Source: Dillenia suffruticosa (Eukaryota > Streptophyta > Magnoliopsida > Dilleniales > Dilleniaceae). Taken from it: 64,000 nt of DNA. A program made the translations under genes and the position numbers. The notes beneath the pieces are model-generated. The model had not been told where the DNA came from. It made no database searches and saw only the letters and a program-made list of their open reading frames with translations. This document shows positions 9,426 to 56,382 of the stretch, in pieces (position 1 is the stretch's first letter; every line of letters starts with the position of its first letter). The stretch is from the NCBI GenBank assembly GCA_033439265.1, contig JAVTVX010000005.1:72001-136000 (forward strand), in the 5' to 3' direction.

Positions 9426-9599
9426 CCCAAACGTTGTAATTGTGTCTTACGTTTACGGTACACAAGTCAGATACTATCATCTCCATCCTAAACTTTAGTA
9501 TAGCAATGTCCTTACTACAAGCGTGAAAGGTTCGAATAAGTAGGTCCGAGATTAATCTAAAATATAAAAAAAAGTATAACAATTAGCATATATAAATAT

Positions 9600-9917
9600 G
9601 CATTAAGAATTAAGAACTCAATAGTCCCACTTATTCCTATACTCATTGCAAACTCTATTAAATTAAAAATATTGTCATCATTATTTATCGGAACCCAATT
9701 CAAACCGTACATTACCGCCTCCCATGTACGACAAGGAAAAACGATAAAAAATCTTCACATGTTGTCTCAAGAGATTTATTCGAATATCTTTACATACTAC
9801 ATTTAGCAACCCATTACAATTACAATTTCTCCGCACTTTAATCTCCATCCTCCCCGTCACAATTCCACAATTGATATAGTATAACACACTTACCATATCC
9901 GTCATTATTCTATATAT
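9600..9917 (-). pseudogene. MuDR-type transposase N-terminal domain remnant
   Basis: Minus-strand blocks read VLYYINCGIVTG, a MEIKVRRNCNCNGLLNV tract, IRINLLRQHVKIFYRFSL, and, after a frame change near 9690, VPINNDDNIFNLIEFA. The order matches the N-terminal domain of plant MULE transposases: a tyrosine-rich start, a leucine-rich 'sxxeLxxxi' helix, an 'I.YR.P' strand, then a 'vPI..DDDi..l..fa' end. It lies upstream of the MAIN-like block in the same direction, as in elements where the two were once one transcription unit. No DDE catalytic core was found downstream. The assignment rests on pattern recall only. Confidence 0.55.
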
Positions 9918-9924
9918 CAAAAAT

Positions 9925-11110
9925 AATAATTTTAAACAATCTATAAATATTCAACAAATATGCAAAATAACTTATCAATTTAAAAATAAATCAATTAATA
10001 AAACCATAAATACTATATTAATTAACAAATTCTATTACTAAAAAAAATTATTACAATAAAATATTACATTATAATAAAAATTTATACTAAATTAGAACCC
10101 TAAACTCACTTTAAATTTATTTTACGGTTTTATGAATAATTTAACAATTTTACAAATATACTAAATTTATATTGAAACCAAATTTATATTAATCTACACT
10201 AACTAAATTTTTTTACCACATTAAATTTATATTTATCTACATTAATCTATATTAAATTTAATATTTAAAATAAAAATACTAAATATTAACTAAATTTATT
10301 TATTAATTAATTTTACAATAAAATATTTAAATATATTTATAAAAATGTTACATGTTTTAAATATTTACTGATATTTTTATATTAAACTAAAAGTATTAAT
10401 ATATTTACACATGTTATTTTATAATATATTTTCTAACTATATTTATTATAACTATAAATATATTTACACATTAATACTTACTAAATTTAATTATGCTCAT
10501 TTAATTTAAAATATTTTAATGTAAATATATTTAAATATCAATATTAATATTTAATAAAACTATTAAATATATTTTAGTAATTAAAATATGATCAAGTCTC
10601 AAGTGTATAATAATTAATAGTTTAATATAACTATTACTATTTTTATTTAAAAATTTTAATAAAAATTTAATTAGTACTAAATTTTTGTATTTTATTTTAT
10701 AATTATGAATTTAAAATTTATATTAATGTACATTAACTAAATTTATACCTACATTAAATTTATATTAATCTACATTAAATTTAATATTTACAATAAAATG
10801 ACTTAATATTAACTAAATTTCTTATATTAACTAAATTTACAATAAAAATACTAATTTTATATTAATCTACATCAACTAAATATTTAATAATCATTAAATT
10901 CGTTAATCACCCTAAATCCTAATTAAAAGGTCATTAATTTAAAATTAATAAAACAATTCATATAAATCTATTTAATGTAAAATATAAATTTCATTCACAA
11001 AAATTCATTACTCATCAAATTATCCATTTTAAATAATTTAAATTGGAATAGAAACAAATTTATACTTTCGGATTTTTTTTAAAAAATATTGTAAAATATT
11101 GAAGAAATCA
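9925..11110. other. Very AT-rich gene-free interior of the MULE
   Basis: About 1.2 kb made almost wholly of A and T, with recurring words such as aaatttatattaatctacat and actaaatttat. Every frame is closed by frequent stops. The repeated ~30-bp words suggest slippage-type growth or decay rather than coding sequence. Confidence 0.6.
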
Positions 11111-13012: not shown

Positions 13013-13572
13013 GTAGAGCATAACCCATTTTTATGGTGCTGCTCCTTCTGGACAAGTGTGTAAGATTCATGTCGAGGAACTTCCAATTTTCGGCTATGTT
13101 TTGCAAGCTGCACATCAGGTAAAAGATATTGCAACTGTATACTACTGGGACATTGGCCACCGTATATTAATTTTTCTTCCATCTTTTTCTTGGAAATTCT
13201 GATGATTAGAATAGTGTGTTATGCCATGTGTCTTCTGGTAAATTGATTCGCTTCAATCTTGGAAGTGAAACAAGGCTTTCATTTGGTAACAACAATGGGT
13301 AACCCATAGTATGATCAGCATAAATATGCATCATTTGTTTCATCCGTTACTGCACTTCATAGATTTGAAATGTTGCTTTTTGTGGTAATTTCAATTTGTT
13401 TTCCTTTTCTTGCTTTGATACCTCCAACCATGAACTTGTTTATTTTAGGAGTGTAATGGAAAAAAAGTTGTTTCTCTTGCTTATTGTCTAAATCCATTTG
13501 TCTTTGGGTTGCAGGACAGTGGTGGATTTGGAACCCCTCTCAAGGAGATAATCCCATTTGTTACTTTTTGTC
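13013..13572 (+). pseudogene. Unrecognised pair of exon-like blocks
   Basis: Block one (13013-13118) ends cacatcag then gtaaaag and, in one frame, reads THFYGAAPSGQVCKIHVEEL and continues PIFGYVLQAAHQ. Block two (13515 to about 13572) follows gggttgcag and reads DSGGFGTPLKEIIPFVTFCL before ttag and gtgatc. Both have good splice-like borders and coding-like composition, but no start codon, no further exons and no family that I can name. The long minus-strand frame across 12678-13160 looks like a shadow. It could be a gene remnant cut up by the solo LTR upstream. Confidence is low. Confidence 0.25.
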
Positions 13573-17094: not shown

Positions 17095-17740
17095 TGCCTT
17101 CAGGTTTACTGGACTTCAGCTTAGTTAGATTTAAACATCGGCAGTTTTTCCTCTGGTAAATGCTCTGTAATTGTAGACAGAAGGGCAGAGCGCTCATTTC
17201 TGCTGTCTCCATGTCCAAACCCCCCAATTCAATAACCAAGTACATTCCTCCCGGAGACTTCAACGGCACAACGACGACATTCTTCAACATCTGAACCTCT
17301 AACAATGGGCTCTAAAACAGTTACATTCATGGGATTTTTTGCTGAAAGACACTTATCGAGCCACTTGATAGTTCGATCAACTGAGCTTTGTTCCTCTTTT
17401 TGGAAACCCATGCAGGCATGTCGTCGGCGAGAGAAACCCACCAGTTGGAGGGAATTGATCAAATTCATGTATTCGGAAAGTTTAATTAAGCGACGGCCAC
17501 CTGGGGTTTCGAAAGAAGCCCCAGTTTTGTTGGTTCCATCACAATCGGGGAAGAGAAACAATGGAACCCCTGGAACTGCCATGAGCCCATAATCATGGAA
17601 ATTCAAGCCAACCATGTGATGGAGACCTCCAATGTCGGAGATAGTTTTAGCGGAAATTCCTCCTAAGAAGTGAAGAGGACTTATTTGAAGAAGATGGGAA
17701 GCGGGCGAAGGAGGAGAAGGGAGGAAATCAAGATTTTTTT
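17095..17740 (-). pseudogene. Queuine tRNA-ribosyltransferase accessory subunit 2 (QTRT2-like) pseudogene
   Basis: The intact enzyme exchanges guanine for queuine at the wobble base of certain tRNAs as a heterodimer with QTRT1. The minus strand reads HLLQISPLHFLGGISAKTIS, DIGGLHHMVGLNFHDYGLMA, GTNKTGASFETPGGRRLIKL, SVDRTIKWLDKCLSAKNP and VEECRRCAVEVSGRNVLGY. It then meets TGA where Trp is expected, before IGGFG and LPEEKLPMF. It covers only a middle part of the protein, has no introns, lacks the N- and C-terminal parts and has at least one in-frame stop plus further downstream stops. There is no A-tail, so a genomic fragment or an old retrocopy are both possible. Family assignment is from memory. 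Confidence 0.65.
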
Positions 17741-17759
17741 TTAGATAATTTTCGAACAA

Positions 17760-18676
17760 TATTTCAAATTGATTTTTTAAAAATTAATTTTACTATTTTC
17801 ATGACCAGAATAATAATAATAATATTTTTACAATATTGATTTCTAAATCTAATATTTAGAAAAATAACCATAGTAATTTGGAAAAATGAAATAATACGCC
17901 TTGATCTTGAGTTAGTTTAGCTCATTTTGTTTTATTCATTTATTTATTTTACTTATAATATTTTTAATTAAAATTAAATTTTTTAAATAAAATATAATGT
18001 TTTAAAATAAATATTAATTTTTTGTAAAAATAGAAATTATTATTATTTCACCAAAATTTTTTTTATTCCATCCTATTCAATGAAATCTAACTTTCACAAA
18101 TCAGGCCATATGCGTCACAAAAGTATAAACAAAAGGATATGAATTTTCTTAACAGTAATTCACTCACTTTTGAGTAAATTGCTAATCAACCCTCAATTTT
18201 TTATTTTTATTTTTTGTCATTGCAAATTTTGTATTGAAAAATATCAACCTTGATCTTGGTGTTCGGCTAAATTTGCACTTGAGAAGTCATCATCCACCAC
18301 CCCTTGAGTGGCCATTTAACCCTAATTTTTTTTTTTTTTTTTTTTGGATTCATAGGACAAGGAACGAAATAAAAAAAAAAGGACAATTTGGCCCATACGT
18401 CCCTTCGGAGACATCCGACAATTTGGCCCATATAAATTGAAGACAAAATGCCCACCCCAGAATCAACAATATTGTCCACTGGGCGAAGGATCCATTTTGC
18501 ACAACTTGCATTCCTGAATTCTGTTCACACTGCATCAGAGTCGATTCACAGAAGGTCCAGATTTTGAGAAAAGAGCATCAGATGCATTGTACTTTTATCT
18601 GCATTACATGCTATAATCTACATATTTATTCCAACTAATGCATGCCAAATTGATAGGAAGGAATAAAAGGGGCATG
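17760..18676. other. Intergenic AT-rich DNA downstream of the DUF212 gene
   Basis: No gene was recognised. The stretch at 18175-18330 ('gctaatcaaccctcaattt', 'cttgatcttggtgtt') resembles the ends of common small non-autonomous transposons, but no paired end or target duplication was found. A T-run lies at 18326-18345. Confidence 0.4.
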
Positions 18677-24432: not shown

Positions 24433-27400
24433 ACCCATTTTTCTCTCTTTCTTGTAGATAAGCTTAGGTTAGAATAGAGAAGGGGATTTTTGGAGAACAA
24501 GAGGAAGCACTCATGGAGGACTAACGATATTGCAAAATCTGGAAAGGAGGTAAACAACTTCCAAGGAAGACTTGAAGCTTGGAGCATCTACAACTATATT
24601 TTCTAAGATTCTTCCCTAGATCTCACACTACCCTTTGTTTGCAATACACTCTAAACTTTATTGCTTCTTTGAAATCAATGATATTTGGAGGTATTTCATC
24701 AATCATTGTGTGTGATTTCTCTTATTCCATGAGTGGCTAGTTCTTTTGTTCTAGGGTTTGGATGTAGCAATTAAATAGTCTATGGTTGCCCAATTGGGAT
24801 TGATTGATTTGTTTTGTTAAATTAATCTTTTGTCTTAGAATTAAGTCTTCTGAATGTTTGGCCACCATTTGCATCTTTAAAGTGTTAGGTCCTTCTTCTT
24901 TTTCAACATTAAATTCAAAACATAGATCAGATGGTAGCAAGACAAAACGTTAACTAAGCCAATTCGTACATCAAAATATCTTCTAAAATATTATGCTCTC
25001 TGATCCCAACAATATAGAAAGCATCACATATCACATTTCTTCTATTTTTCCTAAGTATCAAGGCCTAATGCCAACTAAACTGACCCGAGAACTTACATCA
25101 AGCCATTCCAAAAGGTCATGGTTTCTATTCTCAAATATCCAGAAAGAACTACAATTTCGGATGGAGTTTTCAGGGATATCTCAAGTCGAATTACCAGAAT
25201 GACCAAAAACCATTTCCGTAAGAGCATTCCATGGACCAAGCTTGATAAAATCATGGCAGATCTAGTTTTATATTCTAAATCCATAAGGTATTATTTAGGT
25301 GAACTAGGAAAAAGTAATGATGTCAGCAACCAAAATTTTTTCTTTTAACATAACAGTAATAGTAAAAATAATACTAATAGTAATAATAATGATGATGATG
25401 TTAACGACTCCTAGAATCAGAAGAAAAGCAGTGGAAAGCAAGGACCATGCATGATGAAAACACAAATACATATATAAAATATGTACCTGCGAATCATACA
25501 TGACAAGGCCAGCATAAACAACAGCCATGCCAAAAATTGAATCAGAGAACCCCCTGCAAATGAAAAGACAAAGAAACACATATTATAGACACCAATAAAT
25601 GATAATAAATTGCATCATTTGTTTTGTATTTTCTATTGAAAATTCTATGATCAAGGGAAATTGGCTTCAGTTCATGACTTTCTCATAAGTTAAAGAAGAC
25701 ATTCCTGTACATCTCCAGGTAACAAATGACATAAAATGACTCATCCATAATTGTTAATTGGATTACACAACAATGGTGAACACCATAATGGTATGCATAA
25801 TCTCTTAATAAGTTAAGGCAATGGCCACAACTAGTCACATTTATATCCTGGAAATCTTTTAGATATAGCCCCACCGAATTTATAAAATGGGTAAAGCTGA
25901 AATCTTATTTTTATAACGCAAAAACTGCAAAAATTGACTTTGAATTTTTCATAATTGGATTGCAATGATCATTATTAGTTCCCATACAAAAGTTAAAATG
26001 AGAATTATTATTTCTTAGAATTTTGGATATAATTTATATCAAATAACAAATTAGAGGTTTAAAAAAAATTATGTTGGCTAAAATCAGTTGCCAGTCATAC
26101 AAGTTGTACTTTTATGTATCATGTATACAAAATGTTTTCTTAGTATGTAGCTTATAGGATGTAGGAAATTACTAGTTAAACTAATTATGCAAATTTCACA
26201 CTTACTATATAAAAATACCACGTTCACTATAAAAAAATTCCCCACGTATTTAGTCGTTTGCCACATATATTAATAGTTATGATTTTATATCCCCTCATAG
26301 CTGTATGTACAAATATTATGAATCCTGAAATAATTCATAATAGACTACTGCCAGCTGCCACACATGATGTGATGCTCATATGACAGAAAAAGCAGGGGGG
26401 AGAGAGTTGGAAAAGATAAATTTGAGGGCGAAAAGTGAGAATTGGACAGAATAATGGATTTAGTCCCTTAATATGTGTAATATCAATCAAATGTTCTGAA
26501 CCATTTCTACAAAAAAAGAAAGAAGAGAAAGAAACACAAGTCAAGGGAGAGGGTATTTGCAGAATAAAATTATTTATATGCATCTTAAAAAATCAGGTAA
26601 AAAAACTCAAGTCAGCTATGTGAGTGAACAACATTAGGTAACATAAAGCATAAATTTAGGAACTCAAAATGCATTCACCAAAATAGTCTGAATACTCAGA
26701 ACATCACAAATTTGATAAATGAGTCACTAAAATGGAAAACAAACATATTAGGGAATCGAATCTTTCAAGTGCCAAAGAAGTTGTGGTGGCCATAACTGTT
26801 AGTTGGATGCCATAGAGCCATGTGAAACTATATTTGTATAATTATTACCAATGGCTTCATTCTATATTGTTCTTAAGATTGCTTTTACTTAATTTGGAAC
26901 TTTAGTCCTTAGATATTGTGGAGAAAGTTTCATTTCCAAAAGTGATGGGAATATGAGTGACGAAACTTTTTAACATATCAAACATCTAAAACTGTTCATG
27001 ATCATCAGATTTAAAAGCGGGAATCATGATACCGAAGATCGCTGCATGTCCCAATCATGATCATTATGTGACATTGATGAATATAAACCAGTGAGTCTCA
27101 TGTTGACACACACATAGACACTTACGTGATAAATGGGCTAAACATGACGCAGGAATGTCAACAGGATGGTCATATATCTATGTCATCATATTGTCATTCA
27201 GATCATGATAGTGCACATCATCCTTCCATCTAAGAGTATAAACTATCTCGCTTACAGGTGATTAGCAATTTGCAGGTGTCATAATTTTGTGCTGATCATA
27301 CATGAATTTCTCAACTCCTTGTGGCCCTAGTCAGTTATACGTAGGAGAAGGTATTGTCAAGAAGAAATTCATTTCCCCTAACGAACGGAAATAAGTTCAT

Positions 27401-30400
27401 GGTCTATCTCGATGATTTAAGCCATTGGTCAAGGCAGCTTGACGTGATTAGAAAAGGGCTTTCTAATGAAAGTCTTGTTGTCACAAGATTTGTCCTTTAC
27501 AGTATATGCCAATGACCATGAGCCTCAATAAATACTAAGCTTGAAACAAAGAGATCTGAGTGTGTAATCCTGATCAAGGTTTGTTTAGAATGTTGAAAAA
27601 CATTCATTACTAGTTGGCTAGCCATGATATACAATGTTAGGTTTCACTCACTTTTTATAAAAGATAGGTATTTTGGTAGTTTTACCTCAATGACGGAAAT
27701 ACACTTTCTTAACAATATCTAGAAATGATATTATATGTCTTATTGCCATCTAGAGATGAACCCAGAAAGTCACACAATAGAGCATAAACTTACCAAAACA
27801 GGAATTTGATATTTAATCAAGTTCTGGACTAAGCTTTGAGTAAACTCAACAAACGGGTCATGAAGTTAAGTTCAAAAGGATCCAAAAGAGTTCCTAAAGA
27901 GCTAGGAAGTTACTATTTTTGGAAAGGTTCTTAATTAAGAAAGGTTTCTAATTTTAGAAGGTTCAAAAATGAGAAATAATTTTCTGACCTAGAGGGTTTG
28001 AAGAAGCCCTAGACAACATTTAGATGTTGGTAGGGGTCTATGATGCACTTACGTGCATATTGGATGGCCCATACCCATGTGCGCCCACTTTCTGTGGCCA
28101 CGCGCGTGGCACACCAGAGCGCGTGCTTTGCGCAGCAGTGGCTGCGCATGGCCGGCTTAATCATTTGGCCAGCACTTATGTGCTGTCCAAGTCCGTAAAA
28201 CATATTCATATGTGTTTAAATGATCAGCTTATATTTTAAAATAGGATGGATTTTGAAATTTTTTAATATGATTAATTTTAAAACCAAAGGTTAAAAAATC
28301 TGAATTTTGATTTTTGATTTTAATCTATAACCTACAAAATGTCCAAATTAATTTTGACCAAATCCATTCTTCTGTAACCCCCTAACACATTAGCTGCAAT
28401 TTAAATTGCATTTGAATGGAGGAAGCTTCCTTGCATTTAATGCACCAGGGGGTCACACTTTGTATGGTTTCTCTGAGCATCTAGTATACAATTTTTGGCT
28501 AGCACATGAGAATATAATTCTCATAATTCTCTGCAAAATTCTAGAGAGAGAATAGAGAGCATTCTCTAGAAAAAGAAATTTGCTTGGCAAATTTTAGAGG
28601 AAGAGACATTCTTCACAAAACATATACATACTTTGCGAAGAATACTTGTTGGAGAACAAAATATACATCGAGGGATTTGGCATCATCTCTCTAAGGATTT
28701 TTTGATTCGCGATTCAGGAGGATTCTTGAACTTTTGGTGATCTGCTCGTGTGGACAGACCGAAGGTCCAGCATTTGAGGGACTCAAATATTTCTTGTGAT
28801 GGGGACATACACTTCAAGGGTAATCCCTTGAACCTTCTCTTTCTCTACACTATCAATTGCATATACAATGTATATATATATATACGTATATGGTTGTGGT
28901 ATGAAATCAAACAATGTTTGCATGGAATGATATTAAATTAAGTTGATCCAGAATAGCATGATATAGGCTTTAAGTATTATTTAAATAAAAAATTTTAAAA
29001 TGTTCATATTCATGCTTCCATTGCACTTTGATCTAGCTTTTCTAACAGCAATAGCCTGTAAATTTCAATTTCCTTTAGAGCAAGTAATCAAAGCAGGAGA
29101 GGAAGAGAGAGATAGGATGGAATTTTACAAACAGAGGAATGAAGAGAAGGAAAACCGCGAGCCTGAATAGTCGCTTTAAAGTTGATATGGTTGCCATATA
29201 TAGCGGAAAAGGTGAAAGGCCTGAAAACTTGGCCAATTGCCGCTGATGTTGTGGTGGCTATCAGGACTTAGAATTGGATCGTACACAAGTATCAATCAAT
29301 CAGGCAATGGAATATGGATGAATTTGAATTTGAGGAAGGGGAAGAAGAAGATGATGAATACCTTGTTTTGAGCAATATGTGTAATGTTTCCAATTCGCAA
29401 TCTGAGACAAGTGACTTTGTTTTCTGAGAGACAAATCCCACTTATACATCTTGCATCATTGAGTTTAAGGTCAAGCTCAAGCATGAGCATGCCAAGTGAT
29501 CTTTGCCTAAACTATATGGTTGCAAAATTATGCTCAACCAAGCCAAGCCAAAACAAAATGAGACAAATTGTTCAATGTTTCTATCACTATTAACTGCAAA
29601 ATAGCAAAATGATGCTTTCAATCATCATTTCACATTACAGAAAAGTTAGTTTTACTCATTTGGCAATTGAGGATGGAAATCAACTCATAAAAAAAAATTG
29701 TAGAAATGAAACTAAGAATTTGGAATACACTGGGGATATATATTATTACCTCTCCCTAACTCTGTAACACAATGGCATTGTTGATTTGCTTTGTTCTTGC
29801 TTTGTGAGTCGCTCAATGCCAGGGTCAAAATTGATGTTTCACAGCCTTCTGCAGCTGCTAGACACCTCGAATCAAATGCCACCTCCGACACTTCCCGATT
29901 CCATATCCACTGGTGGCACTGCCTTTTGTGTCTCTTTCGACCCCTTATTCCACCCTCACATTGTCTTCACTCACTGCAGTTTCCACAATCTTGGTGTCTT
30001 CAATCCACCGAGTTTCAACCATCTCTACTCCTCCCGTTACCACCGCACTCTTTTGATGATCCTTATCCCTTTAAGGCAGCCGTCATTCACAAGGCAGATT
30101 AAAATTGATTACTAATGCCTCGAGTAAATTTGGTTATTGGCAATATTGACATGATCTCCCTCTCTTTCTCTCTCTCGAACACAAGGATATAAAGAGAAAC
30201 TGTAGTCCTTATTCTGCATTAGTTTATGATTCTCAAACGTTTCTTGTCCAGGTCATTAATACCATAAAAAAGAACAAATTCCTTTCTCATGTAAAAAATT
30301 AAGGATATGTGTGATAAGAAGAAAAACAGGATGAAAATTATACCATTAAAATTTTTTTCCCTCCTCTGCAAATATTTAGTAAATAAAATTTTTTTCCTAA

Positions 30401-30446
30401 TTTTTCATAAGGGCAATATTTATTCAAAATGAACTATGGGGATTTT

Positions 30447-30496
<50 letters not shown>

Positions 30497-32265
30497 GCTT
30501 CAACTTCCTCATCAATAGATCAAGAATGTGAGTCCAATCAACCAATCTACAACATAAGTTTCTCACGTCTCTTTCAATGTTTTGTGATTGTTTGCGTAGT
30601 TTTTTTTCATTTTTCATTGTGTTATTACAGCTGTTGTTTAAGCAACTTCAAAACCAGTCGAGCCCTAAATCGACTGCCTCCCAAAAGTGGGCAGCAGTAA
30701 TGGGATAATAATCATGGAAGGAGGGGGCAGTAATGGGAGGAATGGAGACAGCTGAAACTTGGGAGATGGCAGACGTGAGATTGCGGAAACTGTGGCAAGA
30801 GAAGACAAGGTGATGGTGGAGTAAGGGTCAAGGTAACACTCAAAGAGGGCCAAGGGGTCAGCGAGATGCAAAAGGCAGAGCTGGTAGTGGATATGGAATG
30901 GTAAGTGCCGGACACAGCATTTGAAGCAAGGTATCAGACGGCTGCAGAGCTGGAGGCAGTAGAACATCAATTTGACCTTCGACTGAGAAAATGAGAATAA
31001 AGCAAATCAGCAATTCCATTGTGGTGTTACAGAGAGAGGGAGAGGTAAACAGCCCAAAAGCTTGGTTTCATTTCTAAATATTGCTCTTTTCCGAACTGAA
31101 TTCCATTCTCCATTGCCAAATAGGTAAAACTTCCACTTCTATAATGTGAAATGGTAATTGGAAACATTAAACTGTTCATGAGTCAACAGTCACTTGATTG
31201 GCCACTTGATTCCACGGTCTTGATTTCCTTGTGAATATCAGAAATTAACACCCTTACAAGACATCTTAGTCTTGGGTCCTCTGCGACTTGAACCACGTCC
31301 ATGTAGAATCTTGAAATAATTCATACTAGACTATGGCAGGCTTCCACACGTGATGCGATGCTTGTGTGAAAGAAAAAGGGGGAAGATAGTGTTGGAAAAG
31401 ATAAATTTGAGTGAAAAGTGTGAAGTGACAACGATAATGGATATAGTCTCTGAATATGCAACACTAATCTACTGTATCTGTCCATTTCTACCCAAAAAAA
31501 ATAATAATAATAGCAATCAACATAAAAAGGCAGGGGACAAGGGTATTTGCTGCAAATATATTATATACATCTTAAAATAATTAGAATAAAAGCCAACTCA
31601 GTTATGTGATTGAACAAATTTGGCAGCATGAAGCATAAATTGTGGAACTCAAAATGCATTCAACAAACTACCAGAACAGTCAGAAATGCACAAATTTGAC
31701 AGACGAGTCGGGGAAATCAGAAACAAACATATTAGGGCTTAGTACCTTTCAAGCGCTAAAGAAGTTGCGGTGGCCACAACAGCCTGTAAATTCCAATTCC
31801 AATTACAATTTCCTTTAGAGGGTTGGGTACGATGAGCAAGAAATCAAAGCTGGATGTAAGAAAGAGAGAGAGAGAGAAAGGATGGAATTATACATACAGA
31901 GGAATGAGTAGACGGAAAACCGCCCGCCTGAATAGCGGCTTTAAAGTCGATAGGGTTGCCATAAAGGATGGCAGAGGTGAAAGGCTTGGAAACTTGCCCA
32001 ATCGCCGCTGATATGGTGGCGGCTATCAAGACCTGGAATTAGATCAATCGATAAATCAGGCGATGGAATATGAATGTATTTGCATTGAAGGAAGAGGAAG
32101 AGGAAGAGGGAATACCTTGTTTTGAGCAATCTGTGCAATGTCTTCAATTCCCAATCTAAGACAAGTGACCGTAGGTTTTCTGACCTGCTTCTTTGAGTTT
32201 GAGGTCAAGCCCAAGTGTGAGCATGTCAAGTGATCTTTGCCTAAACCATATGATTGCAACAACAT
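18677..32265 (-). CDS. DUF212 protein (acid phosphatase/vanadium haloperoxidase-related)
   Basis: The gene has five exons: 32116-32265, 31898-32032, 31746-31783, 25487-25553 and 18677-19078. All have GT-AG borders and phases that close exactly, giving 263 aa. Exon 1 looks like an organelle transit peptide (Ser/Thr/Lys-rich, few acids), then EDIAQIAQNK. Exon 2 has GQVSKPFTSAI and the hallmark AGGFPSTHSS (residues 86-95). Exon 3 gives AVVATATSLALER, exon 4 GFSDSIFGMAVVYAGLVMYD and exon 5 VRREVGIHARVLNNYL. A Ser-rich variable region and a final hydrophobic helix (EVMAGALLGLVVSLAVYTIM) follow. The family is membrane-linked; its biochemical reaction is not firmly known. Introns 3 and 4 are 6.2 and 6.4 kb. 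No in-frame ATG lies upstream of 32265, and a CT microsatellite sits directly before it. It is probably the counterpart of Arabidopsis At3g12685. Confidence 0.9.
20765..20880 (-). mobile_element. RTE-type LINE 3' end fragment
   Basis: The plus strand reads acaacaacaacc, then cccactaaatgaggttggctg and tatggatttttctacaccatt. This is the reverse of the 3' terminal sequence of plant RTE LINEs and related SINEs, which ends in a TTG repeat. It resembles the tail of the larger LINE at 47.8 kb. Only the tail survives. Confidence 0.5.
21735..22800. mobile_element. Non-autonomous terminal-inverted-repeat element, about 1.05 kb
   Basis: The left arm has 'atgaatttataattttgaca', then 'tccattattccaacaaaatt' and 'agctttctgtacttt'. 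The reverse complement of the right arm (22745-22605) has 'atgaacttttaattttggca', 'tccattattccatcataatt' and 'aattttctgtacttt' in the same order. The arms are roughly 75-80% alike by eye over more than 100 bp. The middle is AT-rich with no protein. The start 'aaaattatccccctaaactt'-like is a common plant repeat type. Exact ends and target duplication are not resolved. Confidence 0.55.
24398..24430 (+). repeat. (GA)n microsatellite
   Basis: About 16 uninterrupted AG units within intron 4 of the DUF212 gene. Confidence 0.9.
26318..29590 (-). pseudogene. Decayed partial tandem copy of DUF212 exons 1-3
   Basis: This copy matches the working 5' half of the gene (31308-32395) block by block. The exon-1 copy (about 29500-29363) still reads KVTCLRLRIGNITHIAQNK before a GTATTC donor. 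The exon-2 copy (about 29268-29130) reads AIYGNHINFKATIQARGFPS then LHSS. The exon-3 copy (26770-26796) reads TTSLALER. The copy is dead: exon 2 now opens with stop codons (aagtcctgatag against the live caggtcttgata), the exon-3 donor is AT instead of GT, the PSSH/PSTH motif has become PSLH, and a 2.25-kb LTR-type insertion lies at the exon-3 acceptor. The copied flanks extend beyond the exons on both sides. Without the insertion it is about 1.0 kb. Confidence 0.8.
26797..29047. mobile_element. Solo-LTR-like fossil, 2.25 kb, inside the DUF212 pseudocopy
   Basis: The live copy reads ggccacaacagcctg across this point. The dead copy reads ggccataac, then 2251 bp opening TGTTAG and closing CTAACA, then gcaatagcctg. 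The TG...CA ends with a short inverted TGTTAG/CTAACA and the lack of any coding domain fit a long solo LTR. Family is not certain; length and the 'gtggacagaccgaaggtccag' region suggest a large-LTR plant element. It contains a GC-rich island at 28060-28170. A clean target duplication could not be seen. It looks broken and old, but younger than the duplication it sits in. Confidence 0.6.
29748..30096 (+). repeat. Arm 1 of a large imperfect inverted repeat
   Basis: It reads ctctgtaacacaatggcattg, then ttgatttgcttt, ttgatgttt, ccatatccactgg, gtttccacaatct and finally aggcag. The same words in the same order appear on the minus strand at 31039-30670. By eye the arms are about 70% alike over about 350 bp. 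Arm 1 is the more eroded in its reading frame. It lies in intron 3 of the DUF212 gene. Confidence 0.75.
30451..30494 (+). repeat. (CT)22 microsatellite in the inverted-repeat spacer
   Basis: Forty-four bases of pure CT between the two arms. Confidence 0.95.
30670..31039 (-). repeat. Arm 2 of the inverted repeat, with a secretory-type reading frame start
   Basis: The minus strand matches arm 1. It begins with ATG and reads MELLICFILIFSVEGQIDVL, then LPPALQPSDTLLQML, which looks like a signal peptide followed by a Pro/Ser-rich mature start. The frame closes after about 57 residues. The parent gene was not identified; a secreted or GPI-anchored protein would fit. The spacer between arms (30097-30669) carries a (CT)22 run. 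Confidence 0.65.
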
Positions 32266-32289
32266 TCTCTCTCTCTCTCTCTCTCTCTG
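32266..32289 (-). promoter_or_regulatory. Pyrimidine/GA microsatellite directly before the DUF212 start codon
   Basis: On the coding (minus) strand the leader reads GAGAGA repeats up to the ATG at 32265, without a gap. The pseudocopy lacks this run at the same point, so the repeat grew after duplication or was lost from the copy. Such leader repeats often vary between individuals. Confidence 0.6.
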
Positions 32290-32395
32290 CGAGGAATGGG
32301 AAGTATCAGAAATCCAAAGCACATCATCACCATTCACCAACCAAACCAAACCAAGCCAAGCAAAGACAAATTGATCAATATTTCTATCACTATTG

Positions 32396-35300
32396 CGAAA
32401 ATGTCGCTATGCATAGGTGATGGTCCAAAGTTGAATTTCAATTATATTGGGGGAAATTAACAAAAATTCCATTTACTGTTTATTTATTCAACACGGGAAC
32501 CAAAAATTCCAATTATATTTTTTAAATTATAATGTTAAATATTATTTATTTCTTTAAAAATTATAAATTCTTCCCTTTAAAATTTATAAATGGCGATTTT
32601 GATGTGTTAGACATTGAAATGGAGAGATATCCATACAATGGGCCAAATGATGGGCATTGCCAATTTTTTTTTTGTTCGAATATGTTATCTAAAAAATTGA
32701 ATAATGGATCCCAATTAAGAAATTGACTTTTTTGTTATTATTTTATTATTTTTAAAACTCGAATCTTAAAATCTTAATTAAATAAATTTAACGTGCATCG
32801 TATCATTTTAACTCTACACCAATTTGAAACATCTCTCAGGTTCAGCTATAAGGCCACGTGTCAAATTTGCAAATCAATCCCAAAAAGGAAAACCTTCTTC
32901 CCCAAAGAGGAAACCTCTCTGCAACGAAGATGGTGGAGAGATTTAGATAATGCATATTAAAACAATCTTACCTCTGGACCGAGATCCATTTTGTAATAAC
33001 CCTACCTCTTTTTTTTTGGTAAACGTAATAACCCTACCTCTAGAAAGAGGTTTGTAAACCCTGATTTCCCTTTTTGTGTGTTAAATGCTTTTATAAAATT
33101 TTAAGATTTTACTTCAAAAGAAATAAATTTATTTTTTAGAACTTAAAATTTATTTTCCAAGTTCTAAATTTTTTAGAAAAATATTCTGTTTCTTAATCCT
33201 TCAAACCCTATAATTATTTTGAAATAAAAATCATAATTTTTGGACTTGTGTATTTTCAAAATATTCAGCTGTTTAATTTTGAACAAATAAAAGTATTTCA
33301 ATTTCTCAATTTCAAATTGATATTTTTTGTCAAAATAAATTATTAATTCAAATATGATTTTTAGAAAATTATTCAAAAATCTTTTGATACATTAAAATCG
33401 ATTTTTAAACTCCAAAAACTAAAAAATTAATTTTAGTCGTTCATTTGGAGTAAGGATGCCCCCACCGCTTTCCGTTCACCGAAGCAATGAATTCAAGCCC
33501 TGGCCGTTGATCTCCTCTAATTCAGCCATGGATTATCTATCATACAACAATATCAAATCAGTCCCCAATCCCCCGCAAGTTGACACGTGGAATGAAGTAT
33601 GAGAGGTTGAAGGTTGCGCGATGAAAGCAACATTAAAAAAAAAAAAAAAAATCCCAAACACATTCCTCTTTCATGGTTTCTCCGCTTTGGCAAGATATGC
33701 ATCAAACAGAGATCTCCCAAATCTTCCCCCAAATCCCCTAAATCCTGTTGTTTCTAAGATCTCCGTAATTATTGTCAGAGATTTGGCGTATAGTAGATTT
33801 GATTTGATTCAATTCCTCTAATATAAGAAGAGAGGTTGATCTCTACGGATCCGCATCAATCTTTCTTCTCTCTCTAGATCTGCATCCATGGATCTCCATA
33901 GACCTGCTTAGCTTTCATTTCTCTTCTTCTCTCGGTATAGGCTGCGGTAGAGAGAGAGAGAACAAGAGACATAGGTCTTGATAGAAAAAGAGAGAAGAGA
34001 GGAGAGGAGAAAGAAGAGAGGAGAGGAGAAAGAAGATAGAAAAGAAGAAGAAGAACAAGAACAAGAAGAAGAAGAAGAAGAAAGGAAGAAAGACAGAGCG
34101 TGTGTGTATGGAAAACTTAGCAGAAGTCAAAGGAAGAGAACAAACCAGAGCGATGACCCGCCTCAAAATTGAAGGGATGAAGAGAATAGGAAAATGAAGG
34201 AATAATCAAGACCAGATCTGAAAAAGAAAAAAAAAAAAAAAAAATTGAAAGGAAGACTGAACTGGGGTCTGAGAGTGAGAGATGTCGGCGATTTCCCCTT
34301 TTTTAGGTTTTTTTTTTTTTTAATTTCATGATGTGGGTTTCTACAAAGAGGGAAGTCGGATCAATGAAATTAAGACGAGTAGAGAGAGAGAGAGACGTGG
34401 GGGTGGGGATGGCGATGAAAGGGTCATTAGAAATGGTGAAAGTGATGGTGGCATCGAGGAAGCCGTGGAGGATAGATGGCTTGTGAAGTTGAAACTCATT
34501 GGACATATCGAAAGCTATTTGCATTTGCATTTAAGAGAACATTTATACCCATCACGATGTGATGGAAACATTTGAATGGTCATATATTCAATTAAAATTT
34601 AGGTGAAATTTTAATATAAAATTTATTGCAATAATGATTTAGTTTTTTAATGAAAAAAAAAAGAAAATTGACTTCCCTTCACAATTCTATTATATTACGT
34701 TAAAATTTTTCTATCTATATTAAAAATATTATAATTAATAAAACAGATTATTTTTCAAAATATTGAAAAAAATAGAACAAAATTATAAAAACATTGGATT
34801 TTTTTTTTTTTTTGGCTTCCAAAAGTACTGAATTTGATTTTCAAAAAATCAACTTTGAAACTGTCCAAAATATTACCTAATCCATAATAGTGATAAAAAA
34901 AAAGTTCTTTAAAAATCAAGAAAACAGTATTGTTGTTACTAAAGGGGATATACTCTATTGATATTTAATTTTTTTCCCCCTTTCTCTTGCTATTAAATTT
35001 CAAATGAGGGTATAATTATGAATATCTTAGTATCAGAATTTTAAATTTTGGTTTGATTCAAAATCTTAAAGTCAGAATGAAACAAATAACATAATTTAAA
35101 AATAACTTGAAAAATTTTGTGAAAATTGTAACTGATTTTTGATAAATGTAATTTATTAATTTGGACATGGTTATATAAATATCATAATATACACGCTCTC
35201 TTTGCATTTCCCTTTTTTTTGGTCTTTTTCTTCTCTTCTCCTCTCACACGTGACAATTAAAAAAAAAAAAAAAAAAACTTCTGTTTTCCATTTCCTTTCC

Positions 35301-38501: not shown

Positions 38502-40735
38502 CTAAAAGTACTCAAACTCAACATAAGAAGAATCATTTGAACAACTATTGTTGCTCTTATGAACACCACCTCCAATCTCTGTCATTTTGTTTTCTGCATG
38601 TGGTGCTGTTCTATCTTTCTCTTTGGAAGCAAATTGTGAGAAGTCAACAGGCTCTGGTATGTGGGGAGGTAAGGCACTCCTTACTAAAGCCCAATTGACT
38701 CCTTCAAAGAACGGGTGTTGCTTTATTTCTGTAGCTCCTCTCTTGTAAGCAATTCTTTTGTGAGGTTCTTTAACCAGAAGTCCTCGAATCAAATCACGAG
38801 CCATGACACTCACATTGGGAGTGTCTGGGAATCTCAATGGCTGGCCTACAACATTAAAGAGTGTAGCTCTATTTCCGGCCCCTTTGAAAGGAGTTGTCCC
38901 ATGCAACAACTCATACAAGAAAATCCCAAAGGTCCACCAGTCAACTGCACTACCATGGCCTTCGCCACGTATAATCTCTGGGGCTAAATACTCATGTGTC
39001 CCAACAAATGACATCGACCGGACATTTGTGGGCTCTGCCATTAGTTCTGGCAATGCACCCCCAACGAAGAGACCAAAATCTGATTTGGATTTACGATTCT
39101 TTTTACTGGGCAATATGCGTGGGAAAAAGCTTGATGGCTGAATACAGCCATGAACTGCATGTTGATCATCCAAAATGCCCGAGTTGCTGCTGCTCTGACC
39201 ACTACTGTTGCTTACATGGACAGATGATGACTTGACAAGTGTTGGATTGACAGAGCACTGTAATGATAGGTCAAAGTCAGAGAGCATGATGTGGCCTTCG
39301 TCTCTTACGAGCACATTTTCTGGCTTCAGGTCTCTGTAGACGATCCCCAACATATGCAGGTACTCCAGCGCCAACAGTACTTCTGATGCATAAAAACTGC
39401 AAAAAAGGAACTAAGAATATGTCAATTTCCATAAGCTAAAGTTTGGGTAGTAAGTAACCAAAATAAGCTATGGATAGAAACAGATTGAGGAGGGGGGGGG
39501 GAGGAAGGGAGTGGTGACACTTGGGTTGCTTATCTTCTTTCAATAATAGGATGGTTATACTATGACAGATCATTGATAGCTGCAAACATATTTTCACCTT
39601 GTATGAGTTAATTTTACATGTAAGTGCAACTCATTAGAAGGTAGATATTACAGGAAAACGCTGCTTTCTCGAAGAGATCTAGTATGAACAGTTGGGGGGG
39701 GGGAATGGTACTAAACAAAAATTTTCTGAAAACATGCTTATTTTTTGGCACGTGATTAGCTTCTGATTTATGGAAGTCCTTGGTGGAATTTACAAAAAAA
39801 AGAATAATCTGTCCAAATTAGTAATTAAATGCATAAACATAGAATAAAAGCAAAAATTCAAGATACGAATACAAGATTGAAGTTTATGCCAGGGATTATC
39901 TCAAAGGTACTTACCGGGCAGCTTCTTCAGTGAAGTGCTTATTAGGTTGCTTCTGTCGTAGAGCGTGAAGGTTTCCACCATTACAGAACTCCATCACCAA
40001 GCAATAGAACTTATCGGTCTCAAAATATGAGTACAAGGTTGGGAGGAATGGATGGTCAAGAAGCGAAAGAATCTTCCTCTCTGTTTGCGCTCTAAGTATC
40101 TTGTTTCTACTTGCAAGAGACCCCTTGTCCATAACTTTCATGGCAAAGTAGGCATTAGTACCTCTGAGTTCCACAAGATAGACACTCCCAATATCTCCAT
40201 AACCGAGGCGCTTCAGGAGCCTAAAATTGCCCAAACCAAGAGGGGAGTTGTTGACACTGGCCTTATTTATAGCATCCCACCGGAAATCGCCTCCAGTGTG
40301 TGGCCTAAGTGGTGCACAAGAGCTCTCCATGCTGTTACTGCGCACACCAACATTGTGGTGTCGACCATGATCAGGAAGTAGCTGGCTGTTTTTACCATCA
40401 CTAGTCTTTGCACTTGGCAATATTGTCGTTGTGGTTGGTGTTTCTTGAGTGCTCACAAGCCTGCCAGCACTTGCGAATGGAATATTTTTCTCTTGAGAAG
40501 GACTCATAGGGGTACATTGATCAGGGTTATTGGTTGAATTCGGTTCATTTTTGGCAAGTGAATCTGTCGAGCCAGTTTCAGATGGGGAAGAATTAGTTGA
40601 ATTGCTACTACTTTTTGCAATTGGGTCCTTCTTCTTGTCATAAGATGGTATTTGGGATTTATTAGTACCACCACCCTTGCAGATTGGATCCACCTCATTG
40701 GGCTCAACCGGAGATTGTGATGAATCGTTGCTCAT
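38502..40735 (-). CDS. AGC1.5: AGC-VIII serine/threonine protein kinase (AGC1.5-like)
   Basis: A plant AGC1-type kinase. Arabidopsis AGC1.5 and AGC1.7 act at the plasma membrane/cytoplasm in polar growth of pollen tubes, downstream of PDK1. Two exons, 39915-40735 and 38502-39396, join inside Arg274 (CG|T) to give 571 aa. Residues 1-165 are a Ser/Thr/Asn-rich tail. Kinase features: the loop [10 protein letters not shown] (178-187), invariant Lys200 in [12 protein letters not shown] (294-301), DFD (314-316) in place of DFG as is diagnostic of plant AGC-VIII, and an insertion of about 85 residues with a basic KKNRKSKS patch. The activation segment is [14 protein letters not shown] (401-414), whose Ser403 is the likely PDK1 target. 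It ends FEYF, a hydrophobic PIF-type (FxxF) PDK1 docking motif. All key residues are present. Which AGC1 member it is remains less sure than the class. Confidence 0.93.
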
Positions 40736-42016
40736 CTGGAAGTAAAAATTCTTTTTAATAGAAAAGGAAATTTGTATTAGAGGTGAATAACAATGTATAA
40801 GGATTTCAAAGAATAAGAAATCCATAACTGGCAAAAAAAAATGAATTACAAGAGTAAGATAAAAACCTAATGAAGGACTCTACGATCCATTTTCAGTAAA
40901 CTATAAACTATGGAGCCTTTCCTGCTAATTAGGAGTCACAAGACAATTAGAATATTAGTATAAACCCTCCCAGCACAAACACATAAGCAAATCAAATTGT
41001 ATAAATAGACTGAATAGGAGAAAACTACCTCTGAAAGAAGACAACTCTGTGTTGTTAACAGTAGATGAACAGCATAAACTTTGAGAAACTTCTTTCTGCT
41101 ATTATATTAATATCCAAATACATGTAGCCATTTTCTTTTAAACATAACTTATATGAACTAATTTTACTTAATTCACTCTCATAAAAAAATTCACAGAGTA
41201 TCCTATCCACTTCTTTTCCAAGTACTTTATCCTCTATGTCCCGGCATTTCTCTATGATTTACCAGATTAATTGTTACAATGTGGTCTGTGTGTCCTCACC
41301 TATATTATTATGAACATTTGAGCTGTTTGTTTCCTAGTAATCCTAATTTGCTATTACTTATTGAGATTTGTTTGGCTTTATTCCTTGATCATTAATAATT
41401 GTTTTCTACAAATTTATTTATATTTTTCGAACAGTTCTCTTTTTGTCTCTAATTAGATAAGATGGAGAAGGAACATAAGTATTAACCATTGTCTCTAAAA
41501 ATTTTTTGTGTTGTGAAATGCTTAGCCCAAACTATAGTTACTGTCTTCTGGGTGAGTTTGTCAATCCTCACTATAACTTTATGAAGTATTACTAATTCAA
41601 TATTCATTTATAAATCATCTCGTTCAAATTACAATTGTCAATTGTGTCTATAAATACAAAAACATTAGTTTGGGTAAATGTTTTTATTCCAAAAGTTTCG
41701 CAAGCAAAAAATTACTTTCTGATGTCTATGAATCCACCTAATAGCAATAATAATAATAATAATAATATAGCAGAGGAACCCCCCCCCCTTCCAAAAAAAG
41801 GATAGAAATATAAGCATTCGTCCTTTTACAATGCTTTTCTTCTGGTATCAGCCCCATAATGCATAGATATGGGCATTGAATTTCACATATATATTTAGGT
41901 ATGTTCTGCATTACATTAATATACAAAAAAGGAAGAAAAAGATGCAATAAAAACAAAAAAGAAAAATGAACACAGAGAAATTGACATAAAAAAAAGGATA
42001 AAGATTGAAGACGAAC
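40736..42016 (-). other. Probable leader (5' UTR) intron of the AGC kinase
   Basis: The bases before the kinase ATG on the coding strand are ttactttccag-like (acttccag|ATGAGC), so a splice acceptor abuts the start codon. A good donor, ggatttgag|gttcgtc, lies at 42016-42017. The 1.28 kb between is AT-rich and non-coding, with ATA triplet repeats (41747-41766) and a C-run (41780-41789). RNA evidence is needed for the exact join. Confidence 0.55.
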
Positions 42017-46700: not shown

Positions 46701-47837
46701 AGCTACAACTTGAGAAGGCACTCTTTTATCCATTAAGCATAGCAAAACAGTAAGAGAACACATCATACATCTCAGTGCAGACAAAGCAAAAATTACAATC
46801 TATAGTAAACCCAACAATAAACCAAAGCAAAAAGGGATTATTTACATTTTAAGTATGTTTCAGGCAATAAAACTTTAGTATAATCTAATTAAATCCTAAC
46901 AAAGATTTCATTTCTCTTGAAAATATAATCTTATCAAGTCCTAACAAAGATTTCATTTCTCGAGTCACAACATCCAAATATCTACCATAAATCTGAAAAA
47001 ACTATCAGAAGGGCAGAAAAGTTACCAGTGATCAAAAGAAACCGGAAGAAAGCTGTTTCATGAAGACAATGCTCTCTCTTACCTTCCCAGCCAAAATAAC
47101 GAGTTTTTTCTGCCCTTTTGATAATTTTTTCCTGATTTGCTGCAGATATTTGGATGTTATCACTCAAGAGAATTGAAATCTTTGTTGGGGTTTAATTAGA
47201 TTATGTAAAAGATTTATTGTCTGAAACATGTTTAAAATGTTAATATCTCATTTTGCTTTGGTTTATCATTGGTTTTACTGCAGATTTTAATATTCAATTA
47301 TGATAGGATGCTGCCCCTACATATAACTGGGAGCATGTAGATAGAAAATAATAAAATCGTATCGTTCAAGTTTGAGCTTTGAAGTTCTTTTTTGTTTCAA
47401 AAATCACAAATTCATAGTCACTTTTACCCGAAGGTAGTGGTGGATAAGCCCCAACTTTGGTGTTCTTCGAAATCGAGAATATGCCCTTTTGGATGAGAAT
47501 ACCTGAATGATCATACAATTTTTGCAATGCATAAGTTTTTCTATGCTTGTGATTGAGAAAAAGTTTTTGCTATTCTTGGAATTTGGTATGGCATGTCTTC
47601 CATCAAGACTTTACCACTTTTGATTCGAGAATGGGTTGCAAGCTGGCCCTTGAGGTTAGAAAATGATAGAAAGAATAACCAAAAATTTGATGTATTATGA
47701 CACTGTTTGGTAAAAATATCTCCTTCATATGCCACAGGCTCTCAAAACCTTTTCTTCTGCTGAGGCACTGTTTGGAAAAAATAATGCCTATTTTCTGACA
47801 TCCTGCTCCCTCAAACTAGTATCGGTTTGATGTATGT

Positions 47838-54499: not shown

Positions 54500-56382
54500 T
54501 CAATTCAGGGTGCATGTAGAAGGATAAAAGCCCAAGTTGCTTTGAACAAGATCAAATTCCCACAAATGGTTCTGTTGCATTATATTCCCAATTACAGATA
54601 CTCCGGGCCAAGCCGTGGACATAAATCCTAGGCATTTCACTCCATCCGCTACATCGATTACGTAACTCTTCACCGGAGGCTCCAATTTTGCCCCATCTGT
54701 GAAATGAAATCCCAATTTTGGCACCACAGACTCTTCAAATCCGGTAGAATTGAAGCAATACTCTAGAGGTCCAATATCAATCTCCAATTTCTTGAACTTG
54801 ACCAGTGACTCCTTCAATGCACTCATGACCGGAACGTAAGCTGGCACGGCGAGGAACGTGAGGCTCGAGCCTGAGTCTAGAATGGTCCCTCCAACCCCAT
54901 TCACATCCCAAACTGCAGCCGGGATTTCCAACATTTTGGCGCCAACAGAGATACCCTTCATGTTCACGGCATAGAATGGAGTCAGCACACCCAATACAAG
55001 CTTAGTGAACTGCATGCCATTTGGCTTGTTTTTTGGGTTGTTGCTGCCGAAAGTAAGATAATTTGATACGTTTTTGTGGCTTAGGTGATCAACTAGGCAA
55101 TAAGTGAAGACGCCACCGAAGGTTTTGGCAGCTTTGAGTGAGAAAGAGTACTTGCTAAAACCTAAGCCGACCACGCCATCTGCTCTCTGGAAGCTCTGAC
55201 CACGAAAAGACTCACTGCACCCAATCAATACATCGTGCAGTCTTGTCTTTCGACCATTTGTCAGGTCTACAGTTATCGTCTCGTTGGCAAAAATGCCTAG
55301 TGCATCTGACCCATCAGAGTACCTGATCATGATCATTAAAATTTAAGGATAAGTTAAGACTCATAAATGCTCCCCCTTTCTTTTTTAGTTGTCTGTGTCG
55401 TTTAAGGATAAGACTCATGAATGCACCCTTTTCTCTTTAGGTGTCTATGTCTTGTTATCCGACAAAGAAATAGATTTGGAGTTATGTATGTATGTCTTGT
55501 GTTTGAATCGGGGAATTATTATTGCAGCCCCAGAGAGAGTTGTGAGTTGACCATGAACTGTATGTTTCCCATCCCAGTTTGAGTGGTAGGTAAAACAATG
55601 CAGATCATGTGAACTCTCCTGCCAACTAGGGTGACACATTTAATTCATCATTATTAACCTGCTTGGCTATCTCTATCTACTAGCCAGAACAGAACTACTT
55701 CACAATCAATAGCCAAGCCCATAAGTCCTTTTTTTTTCCCTTTTCTTTTTTGGGGTGCAGAGCAATATATTAAGTACCTGAAATCATAAGCACATGGAGT
55801 CAATGGAGTAGGGCATTGGGCAAGTGAAAAGAGGTTGATGAGCTCAACCTTACACATCTCCGATAAGCAAGGAACAGTCTTGAATGACGAGGATCTTTCT
55901 GCATGAAAAACTCTCCTATGATGAAATCTCCGCCTCACTGGATCAGAACGCCGATATTTGCAATTCATCCAAGTCAAATCACTCCCAGTATCTGCAATCA
56001 GCATGAACTTCTGGGATGGTGTTCCTACTTCAAATTCCACAAAATACTGTCCTGCCCCATAATCTGCACCAGAGTGAATTTCCATTTCAGCTGAAACTGA
56101 ACTACCACTAGCATTGCTTGGAGTTGGAGTCTCGTGCACCCAAGCCTTTCTTCCTAGGCTTACTTTGTGCAAAATCACTTTCTGACGGATGCCATCGCTT
56201 TGGAGAAGATCTTTGAATCTCTCTTGTTGGTTGATTTTAGTTTTAGGCCATGTGTTTTGGTCAAGTTTTGGAGAATGTCTGTGGAGTAATTCGAAATGCA
56301 TTTGAAATGAAGCCGAAGAGAAGGCATGGCTAGTGAAGAAGAAGAACAAGAAAAGGGTAATGGGTGTTGATTTTAGCATCAT
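54500..56382 (-). CDS. NANA: A1-family (nepenthesin-type) aspartic protease, NANA-like
   Basis: A pepsin-fold endopeptidase. Arabidopsis NANA (At3g12700) is reported in the chloroplast and affects carbohydrate metabolism. Two exons, 55778-56382 and 54500-55322, join inside Arg202 (AG|G) to give 475 aa. Residues 1-25 are a strongly hydrophobic leader (TLFLFFFFTSHAFSSA). A pro-region with FELLHRHSPKL follows, as in nepenthesin-like precursors. Catalytic sites are DTGSDLTW (131-138) and LDSGSSLTF (350-358), with the second Asp at 351. Conserved Cys-rich inserts of the nepenthesin type lie between 141 and 236 (CKYRR, PCLSEMCKVE, CPTPLTPCAYDF, IGC). The end is IGNIMQQNHLWEFDL and GFYPSTC. Both catalytic aspartates are present and the length is normal, so it should be active. 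Two adjacent in-frame ATGs start the gene; the first is used here. Confidence 0.93.
55323..55777 (-). other. Intron of the NANA-like protease gene (455 bp)
   Basis: GT (gtacttaa) and AG (catgatcag) borders. The 'cttaaggataagactcatgaatgc' phrase occurs twice (about 55344-55370 and 55400-55425), a local tandem duplication of roughly 55 bp. Confidence 0.85.

Follow-up and report, generated by a model that had tools for sequence, protein, structure and literature searches.

Why does the third intron of a DUF212 gene in Dillenia suffruticosa hold two long, related arms in opposite orientation, and does the hairpin that they could form have a role? A preliminary description of the locus saw in it a young source of microRNA or siRNA built from inverted fragments of a secreted-protein gene. 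The window analysed, a stretch of 64,000 nucleotides, is part of contig C5 in an assembly of 596 Mb, and the coordinates given for contigs C2, C12 and C31 are from that one assembly. The reading favored here, with a probability of roughly 0.6, is that the arms are a relic, an old, low-copy repeat of the foldback type that is decaying at the junction of a tandem duplication within DUF212 intron 3.

The model of the host gene consists of five minus-strand exons with GT-AG introns that join into an open frame of 263 amino acids. The spliced frame matches Pfam family PF02681 with E = 1.1e-34 and 119.8 bits, where the cutoff is 26.5. The exons of the gene model and the intron in question are:

32265-32116, minus strand: DUF212 exon 1, from the ATG
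32032-31898, minus strand: DUF212 exon 2
31783-31746, minus strand: DUF212 exon 3
31745-25554, minus strand: DUF212 intron 3, which holds the inverted repeat
25553-25487, minus strand: DUF212 exon 4
19078-18677, minus strand: DUF212 exon 5, with the stop codon

Given this open gene, we infer that intron 3 is transcribed; the preliminary description had called the intron transcribed outright, a term that goes back to the gene model. The minus strand of the window also carries a frame directly downstream of DUF212 that matches queuine tRNA-ribosyltransferase (17232-17783; TGT, 1.1e-07), a protein kinase gene (38505-40879; Pfam Pkinase 1.8e-37 for 38505-39410) and an aspartyl-protease-like frame (54503-55342; TAXi_C 2.8e-35, TAXi_N 1.2e-19).

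The inverted repeat was rightly placed in DUF212 intron 3, since the arms and loop (29612-31167) lie within the intron boundaries given above. Local alignment delimits them as follows:

29612-30097, plus strand, 486 bp: arm 1, with its outer end at 29612 and its loop side at 30097
30098-30673, 576 bp: loop, with (TC)22.5 at 30450-30494
30674-31167, minus strand, 494 bp: arm 2, the counterpart of which is retained in the C2 homeologue at C2:7475871-7476260

The alignment of arm 1 with arm 2 has 349/524 identical columns and an identity of 76.5% over 456 ungapped columns. Its score is 368, against a maximum of 116 among 281 random segment pairs from the same window, and the inverted repeat reported earlier is therefore genuine and far above chance. 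The arms had been put at about 350 bp, which cuts off about 130 bp on each outer side, whereas the loop, given as about 570 bp with (CT)22, was described well. Most probably the repeat consists of two convergent copies of a low-copy, foldback-type sequence of roughly 490 bp. The loop may contain a different dispersed repeat. Local alignments of its arm 2 side (30560-30681) to short stretches on contigs C8 and C21 show 76-81% similarity, and over 30443-30681, with the TC run included, the similarity to these stretches is about 66%. A separate 506-bp self-complementary stretch at 46789-47294, 64% identical to its own reverse complement, was unmatched by the arms in the self-search of the window.

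The repeat sits between two copies of the beginning of the host gene. The stretch 32402-31306, comprising the 5'UTR, exons 1-3 and the start of intron 3, is duplicated in direct orientation at 29602-29049 and 26796-26320, and the second copy is interrupted by an insertion:

31162-32402, minus strand: tandem unit U, with the 5'UTR, exons 1-3 and intron 3 start of the working gene
29049-29602, minus strand: 5' part of tandem copy U', with degenerate 5'UTR', E1' and E2'
26797-29047, 2251 bp: solo-LTR-like insertion with the ends TGTTAG...CTAACA, inside E3'
26320-26796, minus strand: 3' part of tandem copy U', with the remainder of E3' and intron 3 sequence

The copy U' is dead: the start codon in E1' is lost, E3' is split by the 2251-bp insertion and the donor of E3' has changed from GT to AT. 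E1' also contains an insertion, and E2' has a frame that is open but substituted (DUF212 match, E = 0.03). The insertion at 26797-29047 is taken as a solo LTR on account of its ends and since no internal repeat was found within it in the window self-search; its flanks, ATAAC and GCAAT, would fit a diverged 5-bp target duplication. A stretch of C2 (11581-11785) aligns to window positions 31382-31162 at 72%, which suggests that the 138 bp separating the unit from arm 2 also belong to U, and 31162-31305 is assigned to it. With this piece counted as part of the unit, arm ends and unit ends are no more than about 10 bp apart on either side.

Whether the arms are homologous to the region upstream of DUF212 was considered as well. 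A comparison of 29603-29900 with 32403-32800 scored 30, a value reached by 4/300 shuffles and 2/300 real segments. The shorter stretch 29603-29745 was unremarkable (173/300 shuffles, 79/300 segments) and the likeness was not common to arm 2 (104/300 shuffles, 99/300 segments). The identity was also far below that of the tandem copies, and this candidate was rejected.

Among the matches listed, the closest relative of the arms is on C2. The genome DNA searches score the best candidates and copy counts from them are lower bounds. A tblastn comparison of 420 window ORFs with 100 kb of C2 found the kinase gene at 94% over 300 residues, inverted relative to DUF212, together with collinear coding-like matches at window 1.3-6.4 kb, some further stretches and scattered weak matches. 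C2 and C5 are accordingly taken as homeologous blocks. The C2 DUF212 gene has, in order, the equivalents of exons 1-3, one arm that points the same way as arm 2, the remainder of the LTR, a remnant of E3', the rest of intron 3 and the equivalents of exons 4-5. It is without the loop and the other arm, and shares the LTR insertion with C5 in part. The C2 arm aligns up to window position 30722, and 27 bp further on the LTR begins at position 27886, the arrangement expected if the loop, arm 1, E1', E2' and some of the LTR had gone in a single deletion. C2 is also without window 31087-31649, which lies between exon 3 and the arm. DUF212 intron 4 (25486-19079) measures about 6.4 kb on C5, and the alignment to C2 (C2 stretch 13462-13470) skips 24917-19552; several kb of this intron would have been gained on C5 or lost on C2.

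How old is the inverted repeat? The K80 distance between arm 1 and arm 2 is 0.287 (95% 0.232-0.352), which is close to that between arm 1 and the C2 arm (0.296), and both are larger than the distance between arm 2 and the C2 arm (0.187). The inverted repeat is thus older than the duplication that separated C2 and C5. Each of the five C5-C2 distances measured (0.125-0.225) is smaller than the one between the arms. The divergence of arm 2 from the C2 arm is like that of the shared LTR (0.182) and the intron flank (0.162); the remaining two values are 0.125 for the exon 1-2 region and 0.225 for the U' intron stretch 26320-26796. For the tandem unit, the order of events is given directly on the exon 1-2 side, where the C5-C2 distance is 0.125 against 0.174 and 0.187. 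On the exon-3 side the three distances are about equal (0.225-0.231; U-U' 0.231), and there it is the LTR insertion common to C5 and C2 that sets the order. Hence all three events, the origin of the inverted repeat, the tandem duplication and the insertion of the LTR, precede the block duplication. The idea of a young locus does not survive this comparison, as the arms had split before the duplication that gave the C2 and C5 gene copies.

Has pairing between the arms been maintained over this time? The arms are diverged no less than the non-coding parts of the tandem copies that flank them (K80 0.287 against 0.218, 0.18-0.26; raw divergence 0.235 against 0.189, permutation p = 0.075), which indicates that pairing was not spared. 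Transitions that would preserve pairing as G:U in the transcript are not favored (34 against 29, p = 0.61), and neither the divergence comparison nor the G:U test found selection for pairing. The types of change differ somewhat between the arms and the tandem copies. The transition/transversion counts are 63/44 in the arms and 49/64 in non-coding tandem sequence (p = 0.023, nominal and one among several contrasts). Transitions in CHH context amount to 42/149 in the arms against 28/157 (p = 0.041), or against 46/272 in all tandem sequence (p = 0.008), again as nominal values. CG and CHG transitions are not raised in the arms (p = 0.33 and 0.49), and transitions per G/C site show no significant rise (p = 0.105). 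Taken together, these contrasts are no more than a weak hint that the arms may have been methylated in the past.

Arm 1 also matches C12, where a second inverted repeat is found at 29957149-29957579 and 29957691-29958095, with 314/449 identical columns and a score of 184.5, where 349 controls reach 59.5 at most. Its outer ends are equivalent to those of the window repeat, and extra tandem copies of the outer arm flank it on both sides. The 20 kb examined at this locus gave no match to DUF212. The C12 sequence has a predicted fold of -515.3 (minus strand) and -430.0 (plus strand), whereas 12 plus-strand controls average -232 (sd 26, minimum -299.6). The collinearity of C31 with C12 extends over about 10 kb, but C31 is without C12 stretch 9510-9941, that is, the inner arms and loop. 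The copies in this pair are:

C12:29957149-29958218: tandem and inverted outer-arm copies, in a block collinear with C31
C31:11095487-11096178: tandem and inverted outer-arm copies in the collinear partner, without the core

The C12-C31 flank distance is 0.134, whereas the distance within the C12 repeat is 0.244, so the C12 repeat is likewise older than the duplication of its block. Between the C12 arms and those of the window and C2, the six cross-locus distances are 0.25-0.43, compared with 0.252 within C12, and these values give no clear tree of the arms. In each of the two homeologous pairs, then, one member (C2; C31) has lost the hairpin core.

The folding check proposed in the preliminary description predicts a long imperfect hairpin. 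For the minus-strand RNA 31180-29600 the predicted energy is -607.8 kcal/mol, whereas 16 segments of the window with the same length average -362.3 (sd 33.6, minimum -417.7). In this fold 353 pairs bridge more than 600 nt (32 of them G:U), where the controls have at most 141. The longest unbroken helix is 18 bp. Of the 885 21-nt windows that place a third or more of their bases in the stem, 557 have four or fewer unpaired, and in a wider fold (31800-29000) 359/494 arm-2 bases are still paired to arm 1. A stable hairpin is thus predicted within the intron of a gene whose frame is open, and that part of the earlier claim holds. Is it a MIRNA? The criteria as given in the available part of PMC6611575 call for a foldback of less than 300 nt with a miRNA/miRNA* duplex. 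The stem-loop at 29612-31167 spans 1556 nt and by the usual size criterion the predicted structure would not be classed as a MIRNA. Duplexes of 20-24 nt with five or fewer mismatches do occur in the predicted fold (182 21-nt windows of arm 2 have three or fewer unpaired bases and a partner span of at most 24), a property that is not specific alone. At the gathering threshold no Rfam family was found in the window, the two C2 stretches or the 3.1-kb C12 locus, and within 29000-32000 nothing appeared up to E = 5.

Where did the arms come from? The preliminary description derived them from a secreted-protein gene after noticing an ATG in one arm; an ATG is in fact present in both (29772-29774, plus strand, and 31019-31017, minus strand). 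The frame that it opens runs for 53 codons in arm 2, and the arm 2 start, MELLICFILIFS, resembles by eye that of the right copy on C12, MRSLIWFILVFL. Because of these similar ATG-led hydrophobic starts, an origin from the start of such a gene, copied in inverted order, is still considered, but it is quite unlikely. In arm 1 codon 12 of the frame is already a stop, and on C2 codon 6 is. Both arms have stop-free frames of 113-115 residues, lengths that are equalled or exceeded in 88/1000 (arm 1) and 148/1000 (arm 2) dinucleotide shuffles, as is that of the C2 arm frame in 72/1000; frames of this length are within expectation for sequence as pyrimidine-rich as this. The differences between arm 1 and arm 2, and between C2 and each arm, show no clear codon-position pattern. 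Searches of Pfam gave no family at the cut-off for the arm frames (best E = 0.24, arm 1 frame) or for the C12 frames (a weak E = 0.051, and 0.039 as the best of four further frames), and PDB had no convincing match (arm 1 frame, E = 0.17 and 0.51; C2 frame, none). The genome DNA searches placed other copies, among the matches listed, on C2, C12 and C31 only, and an intact frame was recognised in none of them. A CASP-like protein, a further candidate for the parent, had no match in Pfam and was dropped. A better candidate for the origin, though a tentative one, is a non-autonomous Mutator-like DNA transposon with long TIRs, of which the repeat would be a remnant, and the abnormal transposition or recombination of which would have produced the tandem duplication. 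In its favor, the arrangement is inverted at both of two unlinked loci, with outward ends that agree. Mutator-like elements have a target site duplication of about 8-11 bp flanking their long TIRs. The flanks searched share no exact 8-11-mer for the window repeat and no exact 9-11-mer for the C12 repeat, a search that diverged duplications would escape. The copies among the matches listed are also very few, the frames tried are without a Pfam match at the cut-off, and the outer ends are not sharp. On the other side, the tandem outer-arm copies on C12 resemble MULEs with multiple TIRs, as far as these are covered in the accessible text of PMC3310237, and the position of the repeat where two direct tandem copies meet recalls Ac/Ds alternative transposition in the portion of PMC3744419 at hand. 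The transposon explanation concerns origin and is compatible with a relic.

What the hairpin does is a separate question. A working siRNA or proto-miRNA locus, in which DCL2/3/4 (or DCL1) cut the stem to 21-24-nt RNAs and these direct methylation of the host intron or target the relatives on C2, C12 and C31, is unlikely. It would suit the predicted stem, which is far beyond the controls, and the CHH transition excess in the arms. In the section of PMC3661559 available, two long rice intronic hairpins (listed lengths 1147 and 1681) yield such RNAs, and an excerpt of PMC9263138 describes tobacco hairpins with one mismatch in four that silenced in 33/33 lines, strongly in 10. However, pairing has not been preserved, the C2 and C31 homeologues do without the hairpin core, Rfam has no match, and among the matches listed in the arm DNA searches extended similarity is to the repeat's own relatives only. 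The relic explanation has to accommodate several observations that count against it: the stem would still pair well enough to be processed (the 557 of 885 windows above), the raised transition/transversion ratio and the CHH transitions are what small-RNA-directed methylation would leave, and at both loci one member of the homeologous pair still has its hairpin, which could also be retention. An improbable elaboration would explain the last two together. A low-copy foldback family could have seeded hairpins at two unlinked loci before a large duplication, and small RNAs from each hairpin would silence the relatives of the other. After the duplication only one hairpin would have been kept per pair (C5 over C2, C12 over C31), and the CHH excess would be the trace of RNA-directed methylation.

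If the repeat is a relic, a simple sequence of events can be proposed. A foldback-type repeat, possibly the remnant of a long-TIR DNA transposon, would have been caught where the two copies of a partial DUF212 tandem duplication meet, and carried along in intron 3. In the DUF212 pre-mRNA the two arms would pair into an imperfect stem, intron 3 would be removed by splicing and for the most part broken down, and some of the stem may be turned into 21-24-nt siRNAs by Dicer-like enzymes. A low output of siRNA from the intron hairpin is plausible. We think that the likeliest role of the hairpin is none, with incidental siRNA production at most. The biology is modest: what looked like a young siRNA locus proves old and dispensable. 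The two homeologous pairs, with the hairpin kept in one member and its core lost in the other, nevertheless offer a natural comparison for small-RNA output and DNA methylation in otherwise matched sequence.

How does the locus compare with known systems? The MULEs with multiple long TIRs (PMC3310237, as excerpted) have in common with it the long inverted arms and, at C12, the extra tandem outer-arm copies; they differ in that here no target site duplication was found in the flanks searched, copies are few and no transposase was found in the frames tried. The duplications made by Ac/Ds alternative transposition, in the part of PMC3744419 consulted, likewise consist of direct repeats in tandem that meet at a repeat element, whereas neither a target duplication nor known transposon ends were found here. 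The young plant MIRNA genes that originate by inverted duplication (PMC1790633 and PMC3237417, both in extract) share the inverted copies able to fold back. In contrast, the present repeat is old, the genome DNA searches brought up no founder gene and a conserved miRNA/miRNA* block was not seen. Rice MIR3863 and MIR2284, in the excerpt of PMC3661559, resemble it in structure: they are both inverted repeats of 1.1-1.7 kb in a gene intron with a long stem, and a long inverted repeat in a gene intron is what the window contains. The rice loci have thousands of mapped small RNAs, while the Dillenia hairpin is predicted from sequence and its arms differ at about 23.5% of ungapped columns. In maize, according to the available text of PMC10760457, miRNA-like structures are common in genes and are linked to CHH methylation, which makes the present hairpin ordinary in kind. 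Long intronic hairpins have precedents, and this repeat is one more.
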